From Candidatus Methanophagales archaeon (GTDB taxonomy: Archaea > Halobacteriota > Syntropharchaeia > Alkanophagales > Methanospirareceae): a stretch of DNA of 40,781 nucleotides. The notes beneath the pieces were generated by a model. That model saw only the letters and a program-made list of their open reading frames with translations. It made no database searches and had not been told where the DNA came from. The stretch spans positions 1-40,781 of the forward strand of contig JAUWND010000004.1 of NCBI GenBank assembly GCA_030612835.1, in the 5' to 3' direction. The position numbers were made by a program, and so were the translations under genes. Position 1 is the first letter of the stretch; every line of letters begins with the position of its first letter. Below are positions 486 to 34,443 of the stretch, piece by piece.

Positions 486-931
486 AACCACAGATTACAC
501 AGATTTTCACAGGATTCTTCTTTTCACCTCCAAACTCTTTGTACCAAAGTTTAGTAATAAACCAACACGCATTTTGGTTGCCTTTAGATAATTTAATAAC
601 TGTGCTTCTTCAATTTCTGTTAAGCCCGATGTAGCTTTTATTTCTACTATTACTTTACTATCGACTATTAAATCAGGCTTATATTTTCTTGGGATTAATA
701 AGTCTTTGTAATAAATATCTAGCTCTTTTTGTCTCTCAAAATGGACCTTTTTCAAATTCAGCTCGTAACTTAACGCTTCTTCATAAACATATTCTAGGAA
801 ACCCGAGCCTAACTTGCGGTGAACTTCCATCGCTGCACCGATAATCTCTTGAGTTAGGTCCTTATAAAGCCACTTCCCCTTAGTATCACGCAGTTCCCCC
901 TTCTGTGTTAATCTCGTGTAATCTTGTGGTT
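486..931. mobile_element. GxxExxY cassette with terminal inverted repeats, inserted at the 3' end of cbiL
   Basis: The left end begins AACCACAGATTACACAGATT (from 486) and the right end, read from the opposite strand at 931, begins AACCACAAGATTACACGAGA. The two ends are imperfect inverted repeats of about 28 bases. Between them lies only the GxxExxY reading frame, opened into the cbiL frame. The same ends occur as gene-less pairs elsewhere in the window. I see no transposase inside, so mobility would have to be supplied in trans or by the nuclease-like protein itself (inference). Confidence 0.72.
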
Positions 932-6851: not shown

Positions 6852-9800
6852 TTATTTTTTTCTGCGTTTAAGACCTAATCCTATACCGATCAACACCAAA
6901 ACCACAATCACTGCTATAATACCCATCAGCGGGGCACCAGATATTGGGAATGCTGGTGATGCTTCTTCTGCTGGCTTCTCCTCTTTCATTACTTTACCTC
7001 TTTTCTCCGATGCTGCATCTGCCGGTTTCTTCAATTCTTCCCCTGTTTTGCTCACACCCGTTGTTTCAGTCGCATTAATGACACCTTCATCCGGTTCTGT
7101 TTCTGTTTCTGTTTCTGTTTCTGCTTCTGTACTCCTACGAGACCAGCTCCCCCCGCCGCCACCAGAGTAATATGTACTCTGTTCCGTAGATTGCTCTAGA
7201 GCCGAAGCAGAAACTATGCCCTGCATATAATCTTGCAACAGCACGTTCCCACAGGTATGATGACAGCATGTAACACCGTATTCTTCGACTGATTTTTGGT
7301 ATGTCTCTGCAAGAGTGGTCTTTACGTCTTCTGGCGGATCCCAATAGCCTTTTCTTATCGTTTCGAGCATTCTCGCGGTGATTGATTGTTGTGCATAAGG
7401 GTTGTTGCTGTCGAAGAACTCATTTAAACCGAGATCGTATTTGTCCTGGACATAGACGTCATAGACTCGATTCCACATATCTTCTGTAACGAGGTCAGGC
7501 ACTTCAACGTCCCATCTCCAAAATCGCTCCATAAATTCTTCCATATTTTTTGCGCCGGTATAATCATGTTCCATCATTCCTTCAATCCATTTCGGGTTAA
7601 AGTACCTGGTCATAAGTTCTCTGTTAAAGAAATGGCTCAAAGTCTCGACGGTTGGATTATTCTGATCACGCAAATTTGTTATATACAAATCAGGTGTTTC
7701 TCCTGAGACGCTCCTGACCGCCAGTGCAAGCCCCCCAAGATAACTATCAACTCCTTGATCCAAGACACCCACAACCTCAGAACTGCAGCTAAATATTCCT
7801 ATTTCTATCCCATCAAGATTATGTTCAAAGATATCTCTCAATTGTACTCCCCATACATCTGCACCATACATATAACTTGTTGCACTGAGGTACACATCAG
7901 CGACCTCATCTTCATTCTCCCACATGCTACTTGCTGGAATGGCTTCGTGGAGTCCTGGGCCAAATTTACCTATATCGTGGGTAAAAATCCGCACAGTCGA
8001 TAGTTTTCGTGCTTCTGTGTCATTATATCCATTATCTTTTAGCCATTGATAAAGAGAATCGCTATTTTCTTTAACATAGTTTGGATATTCGGTATCGCTT
8101 GCATTGGCTGCTAATCTTACCGCCTTTTCTAATAACTCGAATTTGTATCCGTATATATCCCGGTAAGAACCGGAAGTTGTCATTACCACATCTATTCTCG
8201 GTCTACCCAGTTCGTCTGATGAAATAAGTTCGACATCCTTCCATCTATCATGTTTCTCCCAAACAGGTTTAACACCCAAGAAATAAAGTATCTCAGATTC
8301 TACCACTCCATGATGTCTGTGTAACTCTGATGACCATAATACTACTCCTATCTTATGTGGATAGCTGTTATTATGTTTGGTTGTATGGAGTTGTAATTGC
8401 TGTTTAGCCATCTCTACTCCGATATTCCACGCCTCTTTTGTGGGCATCAAACGTCCATCAAAACTATACAGATTTTTGCCGGTTGGTAAGAGATCTGGGT
8501 GATCAACCAGATCCCCATGCAGTCCTGGATGGATATACCGCCCCTCCAGTGCACCTAATGTTCTTGCTACTTCCATTATACTTTCATTTACCAGATTTTT
8601 ATACTGAATTGCAAGAATTAAATCGCTTGTGATATTGTCAGACACTTGACCCAAAACCTTATTTTGTGCATCTTCTGGACCCATGTCGTTTAGCACAACC
8701 TCTGTTAGTAACTTCGTTGTGACACCTTCGGATGAGTTTATCACAGATACATCGTCTTTGAAAGATTCTCCAAACATTGATTCAACCATTGCTACCAAAC
8801 TCTCATTGGTCGGTGGTTCACTCAGTATGTGTAGCCCGTAGGGCATGTAAGATACTTTAATCTCGTTGAGATAATTATCTAACCTCTTGACGAAACTTTC
8901 AAACTTTGTAGTGTTGTCCAGTGCTGAAAAATTAACATCCAGAGCATGATCAAGATTCATATTCCTGGATTCATTGATTATAGTCTTTTTGTACTCTTCT
9001 TTCAAATAATCATCAAATGCCTGATTGTATAGTCTTATTTTTTGCTGCAAGTTTGATAAATCCCCATGCAAACCAGATGGGACCAGTGTAGGTGATAAAT
9101 AGCTTACCAGAACCATCCCACCTCTCCTTTTGCAGGTTTCACAGATATAATGCAATGGCCATGAGCATAGATTCGGCATATCTTGGAGTAATAACCCATT
9201 CCAATCGTATCTGCCCAAACCAAACTGTTTTCCTGCTAATGCAGGAAATGGCGATTCTCCCAGATGAACAACCGCATCTGCACCAAATTCATTCTTCATC
9301 GCCAGGTACCAGGCTATGTACTGGTGATATGGAGGTAATTCCCCCCCCTGATAAGACGGGAATTTATTATCTGGTTGATATAATTGCCATGCAACATCCT
9401 CCCTCATCGGATGAGGCGCAATAAGCACATTTCCAAACTGGAATTTGGGAATTACAATATATTTTCCAGTATCATTTTGCCATACCATTATATCTCCCGG
9501 TGGTTCGCCCCAATAATTTATTACCTCCTCTTGCCGATCTTCCGGAAGTTTTCTGAACCACTCCAGATATCTACTTTCCGGTATTAATATGGGATCTCCA
9601 GTTTCCACAAGAGTATCTAATGCTTCGGGAGCCCATTTACCGACATTTCTTCCTTTTTCGACCATCAATTTGGTTATATTATTGACATTTGGCAGAGGTG
9701 CACTTCCCACATTATACCCCCGTTCCTGCATCTGATGTAGGACTTTCTCTATACTTGCTGGCACATCCAAATACATTTCCATACTTGTCCCAAGAGTTGC

Positions 9801-11477
9801 TTTTCCAACTTCATCGTGTTTATGAGTGATAACAACTTTTTTATCCGAGTTATTCATGTAGCGCAGTTTTGCCCATGAAATAGCTCTATCTGTTATGTAA
9901 TCGGTTTGATAGTCTATCGGTTCGTAATGTTTTGTACCTGTTGTTTCATTATCTATTATTCGCGCATAAAAAACGGTTGGCTCAATTAGACCATCGATTT
10001 CTGACAAAGCAGCGTACTGTATCAGACGAGGTGTTATTCCTTCTCTAGTATCTTCCCATTCCGTTGGTGTCCTATAAGGGGCCCCGGTTCCATACAATAC
10101 AGGCACATTCAAAGATTTAAAATTTTCCCTCTCATTAACAAAATTGGGAAGAACATCGGTTGAGATTATAACATCGACTATGGGCTTGCTATCTTTGATA
10201 AAAAATTCATCTACGTTATATTGTCTACTCGATCCATATATCGCAATAACATTGCATGCCCTTCCCTCAATCGTTCTTATCAGGTGGTCCTGAGGCTTTG
10301 TATCTTCTCCTTTTTTCGCATATCTACCAAATATAATCCCAATTGTGATGTTTTCTGGATCATATACGTGATGTGTACCATCATCAGTTCCATACCATTC
10401 GAGATATTCGGTTAAATTCTCAAAAATTATTGGCGAATCTGGATGATATATCGCCCTATCTGGATCTGGAAAGGATAGTGGTGGTTCAACTACTGCATTC
10501 AAACCACAGAAGTTCACTCCAAGGTATATTATTAGCCTTTTAGCATTCTCTTTAACTCCATAATCCCAATACTTATGGATATCAGGATGGGCACTTAGAT
10601 TAACGTTGCCTGGAGATATAGCAAATGGATCCATCACGATTACATTAGTGTGTTCCTTCGCGGCGTCGAGCCTCGATGGGAAGTCAGGCATACCGTGAAT
10701 ATCGTAGACCCAACCACAAACAACTACCACATCATAAGTGCTGAGGTTGATATCATCTGGCAGTATGGGTTCCATTGGTGAATATGGAAGATAACATCTA
10801 TATACGCTAACATTTATCGTATCCTCTACTTCTTTTGATGCTTCGTTGAGAGTAGGTAGGGGTATACCATGCCCAGTAACCAAAAATATGATTTTAGGCG
10901 TTTTTGATGCGTTTGGAGGATCCACCTCGGTCTTATTCCCATAGAACTTATTATCCATGTAGATAATCAAATTTCTTACATTCTCATCTCCGCCATAGAC
11001 CCAATATTTCGTTATGTTTATATCTTCCACAGTCCCAATGCCGATGTTTGTCGTCAAATTATATACAATAACATACGCACTTTCGTTTATAGTCTCATTT
11101 ATGCTCGCAACGGTTTCGTTATCGAGAGAGGCAAAGAAAACAAAGCTTTCGTTATTGAAATTTAGCGATTTCGCTTCTGTTGCATTGTATATTTTAACAT
11201 CCATCGTTGCATTCACCGTATTCGAGGCATTCCAAAGCGATACCAAGTTATCATCCGTTCCAAGCACAAACGTTATGCTATTTCTCTTAACCACCCTATC
11301 AGTGGTATTTATTATGGTATTCCCGGATACATTTACAGGCAATGTCAAATTTCCCGCCATTGCCGCCGTATCATTATCTTCCGACTGTGCCTGTGCAACC
11401 ACAAATGGCGTAAATATCTGCGCCATGAACAACACTAATACAAACAATACGGTTAACTGTATGCTATTATTCTTCAT
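6852..11477 (-). CDS. Secreted, membrane-anchored CobN/HmuS-like protein, short paralogue with degenerate HGTxE motif
   Basis: This protein has 1541 residues. Layout: signal peptide 1-30 (ending VVAQAQ); a short N-terminal region rich in N-x-S/T sequons; the CobN/Mg-chelatase H-type core from about 190 to 1390 (start IIFLVTGHGIPLP; late motifs NPKWIEGMMEHDYTGAK and NNPYAQQSITARMLE); a VTCCHHTCGN motif near 1403-1413; a Gly/Ser and Glu/Thr linker; and a C-terminal membrane helix about 1510-1535 with an RRKK tail. Ordinary CobN is cytoplasmic and lacks the export and anchor signals. At residues 738-752, where family members have HGTxE-x3-GK, this copy has GESPFPALAGK, so the conserved His and Glu are missing. 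It starts immediately after the stop of its long paralogue, with the ribosome site inside that gene. A substrate-binding or partner role rather than chelatase activity is inferred. Confidence 0.85.
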   Translation of the reverse strand: MKNNSIQLTVLFVLVLFMAQIFTPFVVAQAQSEDNDTAAMAGNLTLPVNVSGNTIINTTDRVVKRNSITFVLGTDDNLVSLWNASNTVNATMDVKIYNATEAKSLNFNNESFVFFASLDNETVASINETINESAYVIVYNLTTNIGIGTVEDINITKYWVYGGDENVRNLIIYMDNKFYGNKTEVDPPNASKTPKIIFLVTGHGIPLPTLNEASKEVEDTINVSVYRCYLPYSPMEPILPDDINLSTYDVVVVCGWVYDIHGMPDFPSRLDAAKEHTNVIVMDPFAISPGNVNLSAHPDIHKYWDYGVKENAKRLIIYLGVNFCGLNAVVEPPLSFPDPDRAIYHPDSPIIFENLTEYLEWYGTDDGTHHVYDPENITIGIIFGRYAKKGEDTKPQDHLIRTIEGRACNVIAIYGSSRQYNVDEFFIKDSKPIVDVIISTDVLPNFVNERENFKSLNVPVLYGTGAPYRTPTEWEDTREGITPRLIQYAALSEIDGLIEPTVFYARIIDNETTGTKHYEPIDYQTDYITDRAISWAKLRYMNNSDKKVVITHKHDEVGKATLGTSMEMYLDVPASIEKVLHQMQERGYNVGSAPLPNVNNITKLMVEKGRNVGKWAPEALDTLVETGDPILIPESRYLEWFRKLPEDRQEEVINYWGEPPGDIMVWQNDTGKYIVIPKFQFGNVLIAPHPMREDVAWQLYQPDNKFPSYQGGELPPYHQYIAWYLAMKNEFGADAVVHLGESPFPALAGKQFGLGRYDWNGLLLQDMPNLCSWPLHYICETCKRRGGMVLVSYLSPTLVPSGLHGDLSNLQQKIRLYNQAFDDYLKEEYKKTIINESRNMNLDHALDVNFSALDNTTKFESFVKRLDNYLNEIKVSYMPYGLHILSEPPTNESLVAMVESMFGESFKDDVSVINSSEGVTTKLLTEVVLNDMGPEDAQNKVLGQVSDNITSDLILAIQYKNLVNESIMEVARTLGALEGRYIHPGLHGDLVDHPDLLPTGKNLYSFDGRLMPTKEAWNIGVEMAKQQLQLHTTKHNNSYPHKIGVVLWSSELHRHHGVVESEILYFLGVKPVWEKHDRWKDVELISSDELGRPRIDVVMTTSGSYRDIYGYKFELLEKAVRLAANASDTEYPNYVKENSDSLYQWLKDNGYNDTEARKLSTVRIFTHDIGKFGPGLHEAIPASSMWENEDEVADVYLSATSYMYGADVWGVQLRDIFEHNLDGIEIGIFSCSSEVVGVLDQGVDSYLGGLALAVRSVSGETPDLYITNLRDQNNPTVETLSHFFNRELMTRYFNPKWIEGMMEHDYTGAKNMEEFMERFWRWDVEVPDLVTEDMWNRVYDVYVQDKYDLGLNEFFDSNNPYAQQSITARMLETIRKGYWDPPEDVKTTLAETYQKSVEEYGVTCCHHTCGNVLLQDYMQGIVSASALEQSTEQSTYYSGGGGGSWSRRSTEAETETETETEPDEGVINATETTGVSKTGEELKKPADAASEKRGKVMKEEKPAEEASPAFPISGAPLMGIIAVIVVLVLIGIGLGLKRRKK
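7095..7130. repeat. TTCTGT hexanucleotide repeat coding the linker of the short CobN-like protein
   Basis: Six units (five TTCTGT and one TTCTGC) encode an alternating Glu-Thr/Ala run on the minus strand. The long paralogue has an interrupted, shorter version near 11717-11752, so linker length differs between the copies. Confidence 0.85.
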
Positions 11478-14400
11478 TCATCTTCTCCTCCGTTTATATC
11501 CTAATCCACTACCAATCAGCACCAAAACCACAATCACTGCTATAATACCCATCAGCGGGGCACCAGATACAGCGAATGCCGATGATTCCACAAGCTTATC
11601 CTCTTTCATTACTTTCCCTCTCTTCTCCGATGCTACCTCAGGCAGTTTCTTCAGCTCTTCGCCTGTTTTACTCACGCCCGTTGTTTCGGTCGCATTAATG
11701 ACCCCTTTATCCGATTCTGTTTCTGTTTCTTCTCCTGTTTCTGTTTCTGTACTCCTACGAGACCCGCCTCCACCACCAGAGTAATATGTACTCTGTTCAG
11801 TAGATTGTTCAGTAGCCGAAGCAGAAACTATACCCTGCTGGTAATCCTGAAACAGCGGATTGCCACAGGTATGATGACAGCATGTAACACCGTATTCTTC
11901 GACCGATTTCTGATATATCTCTGCAAGGTTGGTCTTTACATCTTCTGATGGATCCCAATAGCCTTTCCTTATCGCTTCGAGCATCCTCGCAGTGATGGAT
12001 TGCTGAGCCCATGGATTGTTCTCATCGAACCAATCCTGTAGCCCCAGGTCATATTTGTCCTGTACATAGATAGAATACATCTCGTTCCACATCTCTTCCG
12101 TTATGACATCCGGGCATGTGACATCCCAGCCCCAGAGGTTTGCCATGATCTCTGTTATCGCTCTGGCACCGGCATAATCATGTCCCATCATGCCCTCGAT
12201 CCAATATGGATTAAAGTACATCGAACGCAAGTCCCTCAAAATGACATGACTCAACGGCTCTAACTTTGCGCCATTTTGATCCTTGAGGTTGCTTATGTAC
12301 ATATCAGGCGCTTTACCAGTAATCTCGCGAACCGCCATGCTCAACCCACCAAAGAACTCAAAAGTGTGATCTATACCAAGCACGCTGTGGGAATGCGATG
12401 CCCACCCGAATAGTGCTACCTCGGTTCCGTTGAGATTCTGCTTGAATAGGTCTACGTGTTGCTCACCCCAGATCGTATCGCCATACACATTGCCCATATT
12501 CCTGATATAGAGGTCTGCAAGCGTGCTTTCGTTCTCCCACGTACCGCTGCCTTCAATGGCTGCAATAAACCCGCCAACGCCCCATACACCATCCGGTGGC
12601 CCGAAAATACGTGTCAATGAGAGCTCTCGCGCCTGCGATTTGGTATAGTTGTGCTCAATCAGCCATTGATATGTTGATTGAGTACTTTCATTCACATAGT
12701 TCCTGTGGTAGGGCGAATCATCCGATTCAGATGCTAGGCGTACCGCTTTATTGATTAACTCGATCTGATGCGGCCAATTCTCGCGATATATACCGCTCAT
12801 GGTGACAACGGCATCTATTCTTGGTCTACCCAAGTCCTCTATCGGTATGAGACGAACGTCAATGACGTTCTTGTTTCTATCCCATACAGGCTCCACACCC
12901 AGCAGATAGAAGAGTTCAGATTCAAGCACGCCCAAATCCTTCATTGTATTAAATGAGAACATAACAAAGCCGATCTTCCGTGGATAACTTGCATCGGTCC
13001 CGTTATAATATTTAGAGAGCAATTGATCTATCAGTTCCTTACCCACCTCCCATGCAGGTTCCGTCGGCACAATATTCGGATCAAAGCCATAGAAATTCCG
13101 CCCGGTCGGCAACACATTAGGATTTCTGATTGGATCGTTACTCGGTCCCGGAGGGATGTATTGCCCTTCAAGTGCGTCTAACGTTCTTGGTATTTCGATC
13201 ATGCATTCACGAAGATTCTCGGCGTACACTACCGCGAGCTTCAAGAAGTTTGTAAGTGGCGTCGCCTCTGCTATCGCATCATCTGATGCATCCTGTCTGC
13301 TTATAATGACCGTTGCGTTAGTCATTGGCGTTACACCATAACGGCCCTGCGCGAGTACTACACCAGAGATCGAGGAAGTACCGGCTATGCTATCCGGATC
13401 ATCTGTCATATTCAATATATCGTTTGCAGTTGTCTCATCGCCGAATGTCAGCCAGACCTCGATTTCGTTTAGGTGCTCACCATCGTCCACACTGGTATTT
13501 ATAGCGCCTATGAACCAGCAGCTCATTCCCGATATATACGTTAGCACTGTTATCGTGTAATTCCCGGCAGCGAGGTTGGAGAACGTGTAATTACCATTCT
13601 CATCTGTAGTTGTTCTTGTCAATGTGGTCCTGTTCTCTGATACGGACTCGGTAACATTTTCTGATCTGCCCAACACCTTCTCCTGTGCCTCTTTCGGTGA
13701 TGTTCCATTGATTATCACTGCCTCAAGAAGCATTCTCGTCTGGTTCACGGAGATGTTCATACTTTCGATATAATCCCTGAATTCATATCCGAGCAGTGAT
13801 TTGGTCATATCAACAATGCTATCGTTAGAGAGCGGTTTTCCCATAATATGCAACCCGTAGGGCATGTACTCTCTCTTTATCTCCAGTAGATAATCATGCA
13901 TCTCATCGAGGAACTCATCAAAGGCAGTCTCATTGCCCGCAGCAATCTCGTCCTGATCAACGCCCAGATCGTGATCGAGATTCAGATCACGGCACATCTC
14001 TAATATCTGCTCTTTATACTTGTTCCTGAGCGTGCCATTTTCCTCCCGTTCGTACAGCGGTATCGTCTGTTCGAGATTTGATAGATTACCGTATAGTCCT
14101 GCTGCAACGATCACAGGGGTTAGATGATCGATCATGACCGCATTGCCCCGTCTCTTCGCAATAACGCCTTCACCGATCCCTTCCACTTCGTAGTGGTACA
14201 CTACCGGCAGGTCATGGATCAAAATCGCAGGCCAGCACTCTTCTACAGATAACCCCACACCCTTTCCCGGCAGCCATTCCTGAGTTCCGTGCCTGCCGAC
14301 AGACACGATTGCATCTGCACCGTAGTCATGGCTCAGCCAGTAATAGAATGCGATATATTGATGCGTGGGAGGCACGGATTTATCGTGATACAGAGCAGTC

Positions 14401-17177
14401 ATATTCTGCGTTCCTGCACGCGATGGCTGTGGCGCGATCAGAATGTTACCGAGCGAAATCTTTGGTATCATGATGTACTTACCCGATTCATTTTCATAGA
14501 CCATGATCTCACCTGGTGGCGGACCCCAGCGCTCGATTACCTCCATCCTTTTCTGCTCCGGTAGTTCATTGAACAAGGCTAAATATTCATCTTCCGGTAC
14601 AAGCGCTACGTCACAGTTCTCTGCCACGTATTTTATCTGATCCGGCACCCAGATCCCGATATTTCTACCCTGTGTCAGCACCAAATCCAGCAGTTCCTTG
14701 TCTGTCGGGATTTCATCGCCGAGTGCATAGCCACGGTCATCCATAGCATGAAGAATATTCACGATGCTTGGCGCAACGTCGAGGTTTGCCGCAACCAGAC
14801 AGCTATCATTGCCCACCGAATGGTGATAATATATAATTGCAACTTTTCTCTCGCTGTTATTCGTATATTGTAAATTGCTCCATGATAGTGCCCGATCCAC
14901 AGCCCAGTCTACCTGGCTATCAATAGGTTGTAATAGCGATACCTCGTATGTCTCATTGTACACTCTGCCACCGACAACAATAAACTCTATCTCGCCTGCA
15001 ATTTCCATTACCGGAATCTGCATATTGAAATAAGGACCTTTGCCGGTGGTGCCAGTCTCCCACGCCTCTATGGTTGAATACAATTCAACGCATTTCATTA
15101 CCGGGACGTCTAAGAGTTCGAGATATTCACGCTGTTTTACCATCACTGTTAGCGGGCCCATACCCAACCCAAGGTCTATCATGACGTCAACTACCGATTC
15201 ACCGTCATCCATAAAGATCTTAGAGATATTTCCTTCAAATAACAGATATGGCGGATACGCAGCGATTACATTCGCGCCTCGCGCCTCTGTTTCTCTGATG
15301 AACTTATCTACTACGCCTATCTCACCGGTACCATATCGTTCCTTCCAGAATACGAGCCCTAGCGTCTGATTATTGGGATTGTAAACGTGATGATGACCTG
15401 TATCGTTTTTATACCAATCAAGATACTCGCTCAAACCCTCAAAGATTCGATCTGTATCAGGATGGTAGATTCCCTCGCCAGGGATGGTGCTCGGTTCTTC
15501 AATTGCACCATCTAAGCCACAGAACTCGATACCAAGATAAATCAAGAGTCGTTCCATATTCCTGATGTCGCGGCTGCCCCAGTATTGTCCGATGTATGGA
15601 TGCTCTGTAAGGTTGATATTACCAAATTCCGCATCGGTGCATATTACAGATACATTGTGCTCTTTTGCTGCTTCGAGTATTGGCACAACTACGTTCTGTA
15701 TCGGTTCTGTGTACAACCGGGATGCAAATATCACGTCATACGTTGTTAGATTCAGGTCCAAAGGGACATTATAATTACTATACACACTTACATTCAGACC
15801 GATATTCTCCGCTGCACGTTTGATCAAAAAGATGTCGCCATCCGCTATCGAGAAAAACGCCATCTTTGGCTCTTTATTTACGCTTTTGTTTACTCTTGAG
15901 AGTGCGCCCTCACCATCATAGGAGTATAGAGATACCGTCACCCCCTCTGATGGAGATGCAACACCACCCATGCCAACCGATAGAATAGTCCCATTAACGA
16001 TACCACTGCCTACCAAGCCATTGTATTCATAAAGCACTTTGCGCTGTGATAGTGCCGCTATCAATTCGGCATCTTCTGTGGTACTGAGGAGACGCTCACC
16101 CGCGGAATAATGCGCACCTTCTCGGACTCCAACTGTAAAGGTGACTGTCTTGTTGATACCTTGCATGCCTGGAGCCATAGAAGGGATGTACTTGTGCGCG
16201 ATGAAGCTGTAATTCCCAGCCGGAAGATTAGTGAACTCAAAGAACCCGTTCTCGTCAGTTATGACTTTTGATGATTCTATACACTCAAGCGAGACACCCA
16301 CAACATCTTCAAGCGAGCCATTGCCCGCGTAGGCGGTAATAGCAACCGAGGTATTGGCAATCCCTAAGTATGGTCCACCCATGTGAATAAGCGCAGTTCC
16401 CGTTATCATTCCCTTGCCCCCTAAGCCGTTATTTGGGTAGCTTGCATTCTGTGCTCTGGCTGCATCTACACCCGCTTCATCGCTGGGTTCCAGTCTCACC
16501 ACAACATCATCGTTTTTATTGCCCTCAAAAAGCTCTAAAGTAACGTTACCGACCGCATAACTCATTACACCCATAGGATTCTCTCCTGCTGCATACCCGG
16601 AGAGTGTATAATTACCGGGGGGAAGGCTCTTGAACCTGAAGTAGCCGCCCTCGCAGGTTGTTGTCGTAGGGGCTGATTCCTGATAGGCATAATTTTCCAA
16701 ACTGTCCTCATAACCGGTGATAAGAACGGTTATACCAGGAATGCCCACATAATTTGGACCCATTAAGATTCTAGCGTTCCCTCTGATAGACCCGGTCCCG
16801 GAGAGAGCAGAAGAGTTGTAAGAACCAGTAACGTTCTTGGCAGCGTTTAATGTTGCCTCAGTGGCCTGATCCACGCTTGCATTGATTGTCACACACTCGA
16901 TATGCTCGCCCTCGCCAAGTGTAACTGTAACAGTGCCAAGGGCATTGCCCCTTCCACTTTCTATATACGCAGTGAGTGTATAGGTGCCAGCAGAGAGATT
17001 GACGAAACAAAACGCTCCATCAGCACCTGTCTGCGTGCTGGTGGAAAGGGACGTAACTAAGTCCACTTCCGACTGTGCCTGTGCAACCGCTAAAGGCACA
17101 AATATTTGTGCCACGAACAACACCAGTATAAACAATACGACTAACCGCCTGCTATTCTTCTCCATCATTTTTGCCAC
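11478..17177 (-). CDS. Secreted, membrane-anchored CobN/HmuS-like chelatase with Cna-B-like domains, long paralogue
   Basis: This protein has 1899 residues. Signal peptide 1-34 (ends LAVAQAQ). Residues about 40-430 are beta-sandwich units of the carboxypeptidase-regulatory/Cna-B kind (repeated DENGFFEFTNLPAGNYSF-like motif). The CobN core starts near 437 (AFFSIADGD) and keeps GRHGTQEWLPGK at 961-972 (H963, E967), the most conserved CobN/ChlH motif. A further ~118-residue Cna-B-like insert (about 1185-1303) splits the core. The end has VTCCHHTCGNP (about 1763), a Gly-rich and Glu/Thr linker, and a membrane helix with a KRRRR tail. Possible starts are GTG 17177 and ATG 17168 or 17165; a TATA box 28 bases upstream of the GTG suggests a leaderless message. 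It probably inserts or removes a metal in a tetrapyrrole at the cell surface, by analogy with bacterial HmuS. Confidence 0.87.
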   Translation of the reverse strand: MAKMMEKNSRRLVVLFILVLFVAQIFVPLAVAQAQSEVDLVTSLSTSTQTGADGAFCFVNLSAGTYTLTAYIESGRGNALGTVTVTLGEGEHIECVTINASVDQATEATLNAAKNVTGSYNSSALSGTGSIRGNARILMGPNYVGIPGITVLITGYEDSLENYAYQESAPTTTTCEGGYFRFKSLPPGNYTLSGYAAGENPMGVMSYAVGNVTLELFEGNKNDDVVVRLEPSDEAGVDAARAQNASYPNNGLGGKGMITGTALIHMGGPYLGIANTSVAITAYAGNGSLEDVVGVSLECIESSKVITDENGFFEFTNLPAGNYSFIAHKYIPSMAPGMQGINKTVTFTVGVREGAHYSAGERLLSTTEDAELIAALSQRKVLYEYNGLVGSGIVNGTILSVGMGGVASPSEGVTVSLYSYDGEGALSRVNKSVNKEPKMAFFSIADGDIFLIKRAAENIGLNVSVYSNYNVPLDLNLTTYDVIFASRLYTEPIQNVVVPILEAAKEHNVSVICTDAEFGNINLTEHPYIGQYWGSRDIRNMERLLIYLGIEFCGLDGAIEEPSTIPGEGIYHPDTDRIFEGLSEYLDWYKNDTGHHHVYNPNNQTLGLVFWKERYGTGEIGVVDKFIRETEARGANVIAAYPPYLLFEGNISKIFMDDGESVVDVMIDLGLGMGPLTVMVKQREYLELLDVPVMKCVELYSTIEAWETGTTGKGPYFNMQIPVMEIAGEIEFIVVGGRVYNETYEVSLLQPIDSQVDWAVDRALSWSNLQYTNNSERKVAIIYYHHSVGNDSCLVAANLDVAPSIVNILHAMDDRGYALGDEIPTDKELLDLVLTQGRNIGIWVPDQIKYVAENCDVALVPEDEYLALFNELPEQKRMEVIERWGPPPGEIMVYENESGKYIMIPKISLGNILIAPQPSRAGTQNMTALYHDKSVPPTHQYIAFYYWLSHDYGADAIVSVGRHGTQEWLPGKGVGLSVEECWPAILIHDLPVVYHYEVEGIGEGVIAKRRGNAVMIDHLTPVIVAAGLYGNLSNLEQTIPLYEREENGTLRNKYKEQILEMCRDLNLDHDLGVDQDEIAAGNETAFDEFLDEMHDYLLEIKREYMPYGLHIMGKPLSNDSIVDMTKSLLGYEFRDYIESMNISVNQTRMLLEAVIINGTSPKEAQEKVLGRSENVTESVSENRTTLTRTTTDENGNYTFSNLAAGNYTITVLTYISGMSCWFIGAINTSVDDGEHLNEIEVWLTFGDETTANDILNMTDDPDSIAGTSSISGVVLAQGRYGVTPMTNATVIISRQDASDDAIAEATPLTNFLKLAVVYAENLRECMIEIPRTLDALEGQYIPPGPSNDPIRNPNVLPTGRNFYGFDPNIVPTEPAWEVGKELIDQLLSKYYNGTDASYPRKIGFVMFSFNTMKDLGVLESELFYLLGVEPVWDRNKNVIDVRLIPIEDLGRPRIDAVVTMSGIYRENWPHQIELINKAVRLASESDDSPYHRNYVNESTQSTYQWLIEHNYTKSQARELSLTRIFGPPDGVWGVGGFIAAIEGSGTWENESTLADLYIRNMGNVYGDTIWGEQHVDLFKQNLNGTEVALFGWASHSHSVLGIDHTFEFFGGLSMAVREITGKAPDMYISNLKDQNGAKLEPLSHVILRDLRSMYFNPYWIEGMMGHDYAGARAITEIMANLWGWDVTCPDVITEEMWNEMYSIYVQDKYDLGLQDWFDENNPWAQQSITARMLEAIRKGYWDPSEDVKTNLAEIYQKSVEEYGVTCCHHTCGNPLFQDYQQGIVSASATEQSTEQSTYYSGGGGGSRRSTETETGEETETESDKGVINATETTGVSKTGEELKKLPEVASEKRGKVMKEDKLVESSAFAVSGAPLMGIIAVIVVLVLIGSGLGYKRRRR

Positions 17178-17321: not shown

Positions 17322-17657
17322 TTACGTCCCATTTTCTGGCACATATATCACCTCTCCCGTTTCTAACCGGTACGCAATCCCCAATTTATGACCTTGACCA
17401 CCAGCCAATTCTTCTGTCATGTTCATCACCTTTATCTCCAGCCCTTTTTTGATAATCACCTGCATGTTCTCTTTTCCAGGATTCTTCACGATTGTTATGT
17501 CCGCAGTGGGGTTCAAGAGTTCAGGCACACTCGCCGAAAATACCAGTGCAATAAGTAGTGCAACTGCAAAGACCATTGCAGCGTCAAACAGGTTCGCCAC
17601 CCCACCCAGCGGGTCCTCCTCTTCATCCAGAATTAACCGCCTTCTCCGCCTTCTCAT
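17322..17657 (-). CDS. DUF2149 protein, ExbD/HmuV-like partner of the proton channel
   Basis: This protein has 111 residues. A basic N-terminus (MRRRRRRLILDEEEDPLGGV) is followed by one membrane segment (ANLFDAAMVFAVALLIALVF) and a small outward domain of about 65 residues. The DPLGGVANLFDAAMVFA pattern is the DUF2149 signature. The topology (cytoplasmic basic tail, one helix, external domain) equals that of ExbD/TolR, the partners of ExbB/TolQ. An acidic-then-Asp/Ala-rich entry to the helix could contribute to proton passage. It starts 1 base after the ExbB-like gene ends. DUF2149 genes are known to sit beside CobN-like and MotA/TolQ/ExbB genes, as here. The external domain may touch the CobN-like proteins (inference). 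Confidence 0.82.
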   Translation of the reverse strand: MRRRRRRLILDEEEDPLGGVANLFDAAMVFAVALLIALVFSASVPELLNPTADITIVKNPGKENMQVIIKKGLEIKVMNMTEELAGGQGHKLGIAYRLETGEVIYVPENGT

Positions 17658-17658
17658 T

Positions 17659-18276
17659 TTATCTTAATACCTCCACTACGTATTCCATATCACTCAAATC
17701 CTGTGTGTACCACCGCTTCTTGACTACTACGATTGCGTACGCGATACCACCTGTGAGGAGCCCGAGGACAGTTGTGCTGAACGCAACAACCATATTAGTT
17801 GCAAGCTGCTGGATATCTCCTGTGGTGAGCCCCATTAGTGCAGGCCCTAAGGGTATCAATGTACCCATTAATCCAAACATAGGCCCCAACTTTGCAACTA
17901 ATCTCGCCTTTTCCAGCTCTTTTGTTATCCTTAGCTCATAGTCCTGAAGCAACTTCTCCGCTTCGACCGAAAATTTAGTCTCCCGTAGTGACTCCACAAG
18001 ATCGGCAATGAAATCTTTTAGAAGGTCATTGGAGCCACTGGCATTCAGAACATCAGCCGCTTTATTATACTCCTGCTTCTGTATATGTTCATGTGCATTT
18101 CTGCATCCTGCCTTTAGCTTGGCCATATCCCTGCTCCTCGATGCGTATTCTGATAAAAATTGGCCTACTGAAATAAGTGCCCATGCCACCAGACCAAGCA
18201 GTATAATAATTACGGGGTAGAGCAGCGAATTCGAGATCATAAACATAGCCCCGATTATGCCACTAGATGCGTCCAT
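17659..18276 (-). CDS. MotA/TolQ/ExbB-type proton channel protein
   Basis: This protein has 205 residues and three membrane helices: about 17-38 (LYPVIIILLGLVAWALISVG), and two near the C-terminus, about 127-150 and 160-188. The block KLGPMFGLMGTLIPLGPALM then FSTTVLGLLTGGIAYAIVVV is the conserved ExbB/TolQ core with the channel-lining threonines. A cytoplasmic helical loop (about 40-125) connects helix 1 and 2, as in the family. The start has a strong ribosome site (AAAGGAGG) located inside the end of the DUF2162 gene, which it overlaps by 22 bases. Together with the DUF2149 protein it would form a proton-driven motor, here coupled to surface CobN-like proteins rather than to TonB. Confidence 0.9.
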   Translation of the reverse strand: MDASSGIIGAMFMISNSLLYPVIIILLGLVAWALISVGQFLSEYASRSRDMAKLKAGCRNAHEHIQKQEYNKAADVLNASGSNDLLKDFIADLVESLRETKFSVEAEKLLQDYELRITKELEKARLVAKLGPMFGLMGTLIPLGPALMGLTTGDIQQLATNMVVAFSTTVLGLLTGGIAYAIVVVKKRWYTQDLSDMEYVVEVLR

Positions 18277-28490: not shown

Positions 28491-28556
28491 AAAACCACGA
28501 GATTCCACAAGATTAACACAAGAAATCTCGTGAAAATCTGTGTAATCTTGTGGTTT
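28491..28556. repeat. MITE-like inverted-repeat pair, shortest copy
   Basis: Left arm AAAACCACGAGATTCCACAA and right arm (read in complement) AAACCACAAGATTACACAGA face each other with almost nothing in between, forming a 66-base near-perfect hairpin. This is the cleanest empty version of the GxxExxY cassette ends. It is between ubiA and coaD. Confidence 0.75.
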
Positions 28557-28616
28557 GCTAAACAAATACATTTATTCTTATAAAAAAATGTATATATATC
28601 CTTGGTTGTGAGAGAG

Positions 28617-34310: not shown

Positions 34311-34328
34311 CGAGTTCCCCTTTTTAGT

Positions 34329-34439
34329 AACCACAAGATTACACGGATTTTCACGAGAAATGTTGAAGATGCAAGATCCAAGTCAAACAGGTATCATGTA
34401 TCCAGTGTCATTTTCTTGTCTTAATCTCGTGGCTTTTAA
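34329..34439. repeat. MITE-like inverted-repeat pair downstream of mptG
   Basis: Left arm AACCACAAGATTACACGGAT begins 19 bases after the mptG stop; the right arm ends TTAATCTCGTGGCTTTTAAC. The filler includes AAGATGCAAGATCCAAG-type sequence like that near 29090. Confidence 0.65.
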
Positions 34440-34443
34440 CCAA

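Follow-up and report, generated by a model that had tools for sequence, protein, structure and literature searches.

The window examined here, a stretch of 40,781 nt from a contig (JAUWND010000004.1) of a Candidatus Methanophagales archaeon whose genome is a draft of 213 contigs, raises the question of how a methyltransferase of cobalamin synthesis came to end in a nuclease-like tail, and whether the DNA encoding that tail is a mobile unit. An earlier note, made from the letters of this DNA alone, had proposed that an element with inverted ends and a GxxExxY gene sits at the end of cbiL and was captured in frame. Profile searches and alignment confirmed the insert, its borders and the in-frame capture.

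A complete CbiL is fused to a GxxExxY domain

The minus-strand gene order is cbiT (1613–2227; TIGR02469 above cut-off), which overlaps the start of cbiL, followed by the cbiL-GxxExxY fusion (507–1616; 369 aa) and by cbiF (2–481; TIGR01465, E 5e-55), which runs off the contig end. Residues 1–224 of the fusion (945–1616) constitute a complete CbiL, the cobalt-factor/precorrin-2 C20-methyltransferase (TIGR01467, cobI_cbiL, positions 1–230 of 230; E 7e-61; 205.5 bits against a cut-off of 163.25), and residues 253–367 (516–860) are a full-length GxxExxY domain (TIGR04256, positions 1–115 of 116; E 7e-44; 148.9 bits against a cut-off of 35), in agreement with the methyltransferase with a nuclease-like tail that had been described. 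The same in-frame fusion recurs in a genome of the same genus (G003, 95% amino acid identity) and in two genomes of another genus (G006, 72%; G007, 71%), and it is therefore not an assembly accident. The domain's own start codon is ATG in G006 and CTG in both this genome and G003, suggesting that in the latter two the domain is made only as part of the fusion. Among the matches listed from 394 genomes of the phylum, no further GxxExxY open frame exceeds 300 aa; thus, a fusion of this kind is rare. Long upstream open frames at two loci (L137 and L142) and four shorter fusion candidates at loci of other archaea were rejected as out-of-frame or low-complexity readings. Elsewhere in the window (6852–17177), two very large adjoining cobaltochelatase-like proteins with a C-terminal membrane anchor were noted by eye, without a family search.

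The tail is a full-length member of TIGR04256 (Pfam PDDEXK_3, PF13366) and retains the motif Asp and ExK of the PD-(D/E)xK fold; the catalytic residues D73, E83 and K85 are invariant among 18 family copies. An AF2 model based on these 18 copies had a pLDDT of 93.3, and a model of the whole fusion, for which the alignment was thin, had a pLDDT of 44. The nearest solved folds in Foldseek were Cas4 SSO0001 (E 4e-4, TM 0.53), RecE, LHK-Exo and lambda exonuclease. Sequence comparison yielded no relative of known structure, and Cas4 profiles remained below cut-off (Pfam Cas_Cas4, 13.2 bits versus 22.7; PADLOC Cas4b, E 0.008). It is plausible, as an inference from the predicted structure and without activity data, that the protein is an end-processing or structure-specific nuclease.

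The insert has inverted ends built of a short iterated word

The insert occupies positions 486–931, exactly the coordinates first proposed for the element, and consists of the GxxExxY gene between inverted ends, read in frame from the complete CbiL. The border that comes first in gene orientation (903–931, minus strand; AACCACAAGATTACACGAGATTAACACAG), whose sequence also borders other copies, is translated as PQDYTRLTQ, as expected from the proposal that the right end serves as a linker. The left end had been placed between the new stop codon and cbiF; the downstream border (486–512, plus strand; AACCACAGATTACACAGATTTTCACAG), delimited by alignment of the ends, does more than follow the stop: the minus-strand TGA (507–509) lies inside it, and the border overlaps the last codons of the fusion.

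Inverted alignment of the two ends (487–512 on the plus strand, ACCACAGATTACACAGATTTTCACAG, against 903–930 on the minus strand, ACCACAAGATTACACGAGATTAACACAG) spans 28 columns, with 24 identities, two mismatches and two one-base gaps; the score was not equalled in 2000 dinucleotide shuffles. A repeat search with ungapped seeds missed these ends because they contain gaps. Within each border a short word, C-R-C-N-R-A-G or some variant, is repeated in an inward-facing array. No target-site duplication of reproducible length was found at the sites compared, and the outermost TA/TAA can be read either as a duplication or as part of the repeat.

The cbiL–cbiF junction preserves successive states of the insert

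Comparison with relatives lacking the insert had been suggested as a check, and 28 cbiL/cbiF junctions from 51 genomes of the archaeal family were classified by reading the junction sequences. Eight junctions show no trace of an insert, for example L047, L051, L055 and L057, where CbiL ends KKEEEE* or KKEEKEK* against the cbiF start. The in-frame fusion is present in four (this genome, G003, G006 and G007), all of which have both ends; the same fusion without inverted repeats, which would have spoken against the proposed element, was looked for among these and not seen. In one junction (L050), a complete insert is preceded by a CbiL stop codon; in five, the GxxExxY core is deleted (L009, L038, L044, L048 and L049); and in two, both ends enclose other filler (L042 and L045). 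One further junction has both ends around a VapBC-type pair (L059, 506–1211), namely an AF2212-like gene and a truncated PIN gene (Pfam E 7e-15 and 9e-13). The remaining seven keep the left end only (L039–L041, L043, L046, L052 and L056), and in several of these the CbiL C-terminus is encoded by the border, as in EPRDYTRL*, with a stop overlapping the cbiF ATG. G001, initially a candidate uninserted site, was rejected as such: it is a deletion remnant that keeps TKSLEVKRRIL, the last 11 nuclease residues, together with the downstream end.

The cbiL site can thus be read as one insertion in fossil stages—uninserted, fused, emptied, refilled and reduced to a few codons. It shows directly how the C-terminus of a metabolic enzyme can be rewritten by a mobile cassette, and certain protein tails confined to one lineage may accordingly be relics of borders.

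Border copies without the gene are abundant in the genome

The border sequence ACCACNNGATTNCACNNGATT, allowing at most one mismatch, occurs at 126 sites in the genome (reversed control, 0), as compared with six GxxExxY matches. Most of 30 sites examined are MITEs of ~105–150 bp with outer ends GTATTTGTATAGC / GCTAAACAAATAC and with asymmetric inner ends that are the same as those of the cassette; in the high-copy MITE at L064–L093, these outer ends enclose the inner border pair, and one locus (L078) is a bare 62-bp palindrome. The borders are consequently not diagnostic of GxxExxY, since most copies examined in this genome are MITEs without a gene and L059 holds other cargo. Within the window, a gene-less copy of the same border pair (28493–28557, unstranded) has outer ends like those of the genome's MITEs, and a second border-type palindrome without a gene (34328–34440, unstranded) is decayed. 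Among the GxxExxY copies of the archaeal family, the border word follows the subfamily (ACCACGAGATTACACAAGATT, ACCGCCGAGAACGCGGAGAGCGC, GGACGCAGATGAACGCAGAT, GACACAGATTAACGCAGATT and GCCACAGAGGACACAGAGG).

Several minor observations concern these repeats. Several contigs of the draft (seen at L158 and at other contig ends, C54, C158, C181, C183 and C187) start or finish at a distance of roughly 4 to 120 bases from a copy of the border, and the border repeats therefore seem to break the assembly. At L006 (G000:C158), a GxxExxY gene is interrupted by a MITE with a different border word, and at L084 a lone left border is followed by a HicA/HicB-like pair (by eye) with no facing right border.

Similar borders flank most sampled GxxExxY genes

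A single scan of a species-level collection of genomes supplied the best 80 GxxExxY loci, of which 76 were usable; they came from Chloroflexi, Acidobacteria, Planctomycetes, Bacteroidetes, Ignavibacteria, Proteobacteria, Cyanobacteria, Chlamydiae, archaea and other groups; as the best matches to a subfamily-weighted query, they are not a random sample. An inverted-arm score of at least 28 was reached by 72% of the 76 loci, versus 1.3% of 448 other ORFs at the same loci and 14% of cross-locus arms. Such borders thus accompany GxxExxY genes at most but not all loci: about a quarter have none above threshold, so that the refuting condition named in the note, GxxExxY genes elsewhere without such borders, applies to a minority of loci. 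For a large part of this minority, a decayed border or one built of a different word is possible but not proved. The word C[AG]C[AGT][AG]AG occurs 2.67 times per locus upstream on the plus strand and 2.71 times downstream on the minus strand, as compared with about 1.0 on the other strands and 0.13–0.19 in control windows, and at least two facing words on both sides are found at 53 of 76 loci versus 0.2% of 565 control windows. The period of the word is 8–11, with a mode of 9. Between arms, words agree in 87% of columns and spacers in 71%, and 123 of 168 word mismatches are not G-U compatible, which together favor recognition of a DNA sequence over RNA pairing; the word-versus-spacer comparison is partly biased, since words were located by pattern. 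In another archaeal genus (L261–L264), the GxxExxY flanks are a long inverted, unrelated sequence rather than short word arrays.

Similar borders around most of the sampled relatives in bacteria and archaea point, as far as sequence comparison can, to mobile cassettes of a widespread class. The common GxxExxY family has been defined only at the level of its proteins, whose function is unknown, and neither borders nor mobility were described in the open-access papers searched; an earlier description elsewhere is not excluded. The word-array context supplies the family with a genetic setting and an activity that can be tested, and annotators gain a border to search for around its genes.

Sampled insertions lie at the 3′ ends of operon genes

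The insertions examined are located at the 3′ ends of genes within operons, including trpE/trpG (L137), an NAD(P) transhydrogenase operon identified by eye (L165), and batD/batE in Flavobacterium, where the border's own TAA is the batD stop codon in L148 and L173. Much like the cbiL site, the Flavobacterium junction occurs with a full cassette, an emptied cassette, other palindromes or no insert; in the emptied one (L224), the BatD segment is identical to that of L225. At one site in the archaeal family, a GxxExxY cassette (G041, G042 and G043) and a MITE (G039, G038 and G028) begin and end at the same base, with flanks in G039/G038 92–100% identical to the query. A second site has emptied cassettes in this genome and G028 and no insert in G033/G034/G037. 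In the window, a TolQ/ExbB-like/TolR-like gene junction (17657–17659, minus strand) lacks an insert; G045 and G033 carry a GxxExxY cassette at the corresponding junction. Among 50,697 phage records no relative was found, and of 72,556 plasmid records just 8 have one; neither phages nor plasmids are therefore the usual vehicle.

The fused tail is constrained, and its insertion is younger than the split of the host genera

Between this genome and G003, CbiL has dN 0.032 and dS 0.156, and the GxxExxY domain has dN 0.009 and dS 0.072, with only 2 of 12 substitutions non-synonymous (dN/dS from an experimental library routine). The fused tail is thus under purifying constraint between these two species, and stand-alone GxxExxY copies show similar constraint. 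In the comparison of this genome with G006, CbiL has reached saturation but the domain has dS ~0.36; the two genera's inserts are thus younger than the divergence of their hosts, and they either arrived separately or were exchanged. The GxxExxY copies form a star-like tree, and a single clade of cbiL-linked copies could not be rejected (p-AU 0.49); repeated arrival at cbiL, which rests on the dS contrast alone, is therefore held to be likely but not shown.

Models for the origin and movement of the cassette

What is observed directly comprises the shared borders, junctions with and without the insert, recurrent loss of the nuclease core and differing contents at identical breakpoints. The explanation judged probable, though far from settled, is that a small cassette, consisting of one GxxExxY gene between word arrays and sharing its ends with a high-copy MITE family, has been moved or exchanged through its borders. 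Exchange or homing, perhaps via the Cas4/lambda-exonuclease-like protein, is the best guess for the mechanism, and movement itself remains unproven. The sampled cassettes sit at the 3′ ends of operon genes, where little harm is done. Originally cbiL and cbiF abut, the cbiL stop lying close to the start of cbiF or overlapping it, so that an element inserted immediately ahead of cbiF removes that stop; the border is open in the frame used and in two genera runs, by its spacing, into the GxxExxY frame, which yields the CbiL–nuclease fusion. Movement and exchange of contents would proceed by recombination or repair through the borders, with the nuclease putatively recognizing border words or processing broken ends, an inference without activity data. 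Against this explanation, no transposition or nuclease activity is observed, no reproducible target-site duplication was found, an unrelated transposase could move the MITEs, and CbiL without the tail persists in G001, G033 and others. A broader proposition, offered only tentatively, is that GxxExxY proteins are the enzymes of a pan-prokaryotic cassette class that recognize C-R-C-N-R-A-G arrays and drive exchange or homing of contents, with empty MITE-like border pairs acting as landing pads at operon junctions and four-helix-bundle genes with heptamer borders forming a sister class.

That the cassette is instead non-autonomous, moved in trans by an unidentified transposase that recognizes its ends, with GxxExxY as mere cargo (e.g., a defense or addiction nuclease), is somewhat unlikely but a serious possibility: MITEs with the same inner ends far outnumber the gene, their outer ends GTATTTGTATAGC / GCTAAACAAATAC resemble IS-type ends, and the VapBC-type pair in L059 lies inside the same borders. 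However, a related border design surrounds GxxExxY across many phyla, so that the transposase would have to be equally widespread (no systematic search was made), and the border word goes with the GxxExxY subfamily in the archaeal family. A role in RNA appears more doubtful. The predicted transcript pairs both ends around the gene, and RNase III or an archaeal counterpart might cut the cassette from the operon mRNA and spare its neighbors, in the manner of the Coxiella 23S rRNA IVS, whose inverted ends are 28 bp long, which contains heptamer repeats and an S23 (four-helix-bundle) ORF, and which RNase III excises (PMC4990558); four-helix-bundle genes in GxxExxY genomes also have heptamer-like inverted borders. 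Yet the predicted fold surpasses shuffles by only a small margin (z −1.8), the arms differ mostly by mismatches that G-U pairing would not accommodate, pairing does not need the invariant C positions of the word, and cutting at the ends would preclude the fused protein. Finally, selection of the tail as part of CbiL, for a use in cobalamin synthesis, might be inferred from a frame open in four genomes of two genera, the purifying pattern relative to G003 and the CTG at the domain start; it is very improbable, given that close relatives with CbiL >90% identical (G001, G033, G034 and G036) have lost the core at several different breakpoints, that stand-alone copies are similarly constrained, and that other long fusions are absent from the matches listed. 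The tail is unlikely to contribute to cobalamin synthesis.

Relation to known elements

The cassette as proposed shares with MITEs its terminal inverted repeats, multiple dispersed short empty copies and the absence of an internal transposase, but it carries a conserved nuclease gene under purifying constraint, its ends are iterated-word arrays and no reproducible target duplication was found. As with homing endonucleases, a nuclease gene occupies the same position in relatives and contents change between fixed borders; in contrast, the cassette lies at many sites, is associated with no intron or intein and has no cleavage shown, and its fold is nearest to Cas4/RecB/lambda exonuclease. Tn7-type ends also comprise several short sites in an inverted array, and the TnsA protein of these elements is a PD-(D/E)xK nuclease, but the cassette lacks a TnsB-like transposase, and no TnsA similarity appears among the fold matches listed.

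The closest described elements are the 23S rRNA IVS with an S23/four-helix-bundle ORF (TIGR02436), in which one small ORF likewise lies between inverted ends with short iterated words and decays while the ends stay. The cassette differs in residing in a protein operon, between cbiL and cbiF, rather than in rRNA, in encoding a predicted nuclease, in having the word C-R-C-N-R-A-G with a period of 8–11 instead of heptamers, and in that excision of its RNA is not shown. Four-helix-bundle genes occur in 24 of 30 GxxExxY genomes versus 0 of 14 control genomes; none of 31 such loci has the GxxExxY word arrays, and 20 of the 31 score 28 or more for inverted arms, which are built on other words, often ~7 bases long. 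These genes have borders analogous to those of the cassette and form a putative sister class of it. At L194–L223 and L063, the borders of these S23/IVS-type genes are inverted arrays of words such as CAGTTGT, AGGAGTC and TGACAGGG, among others, with many copies per genome.
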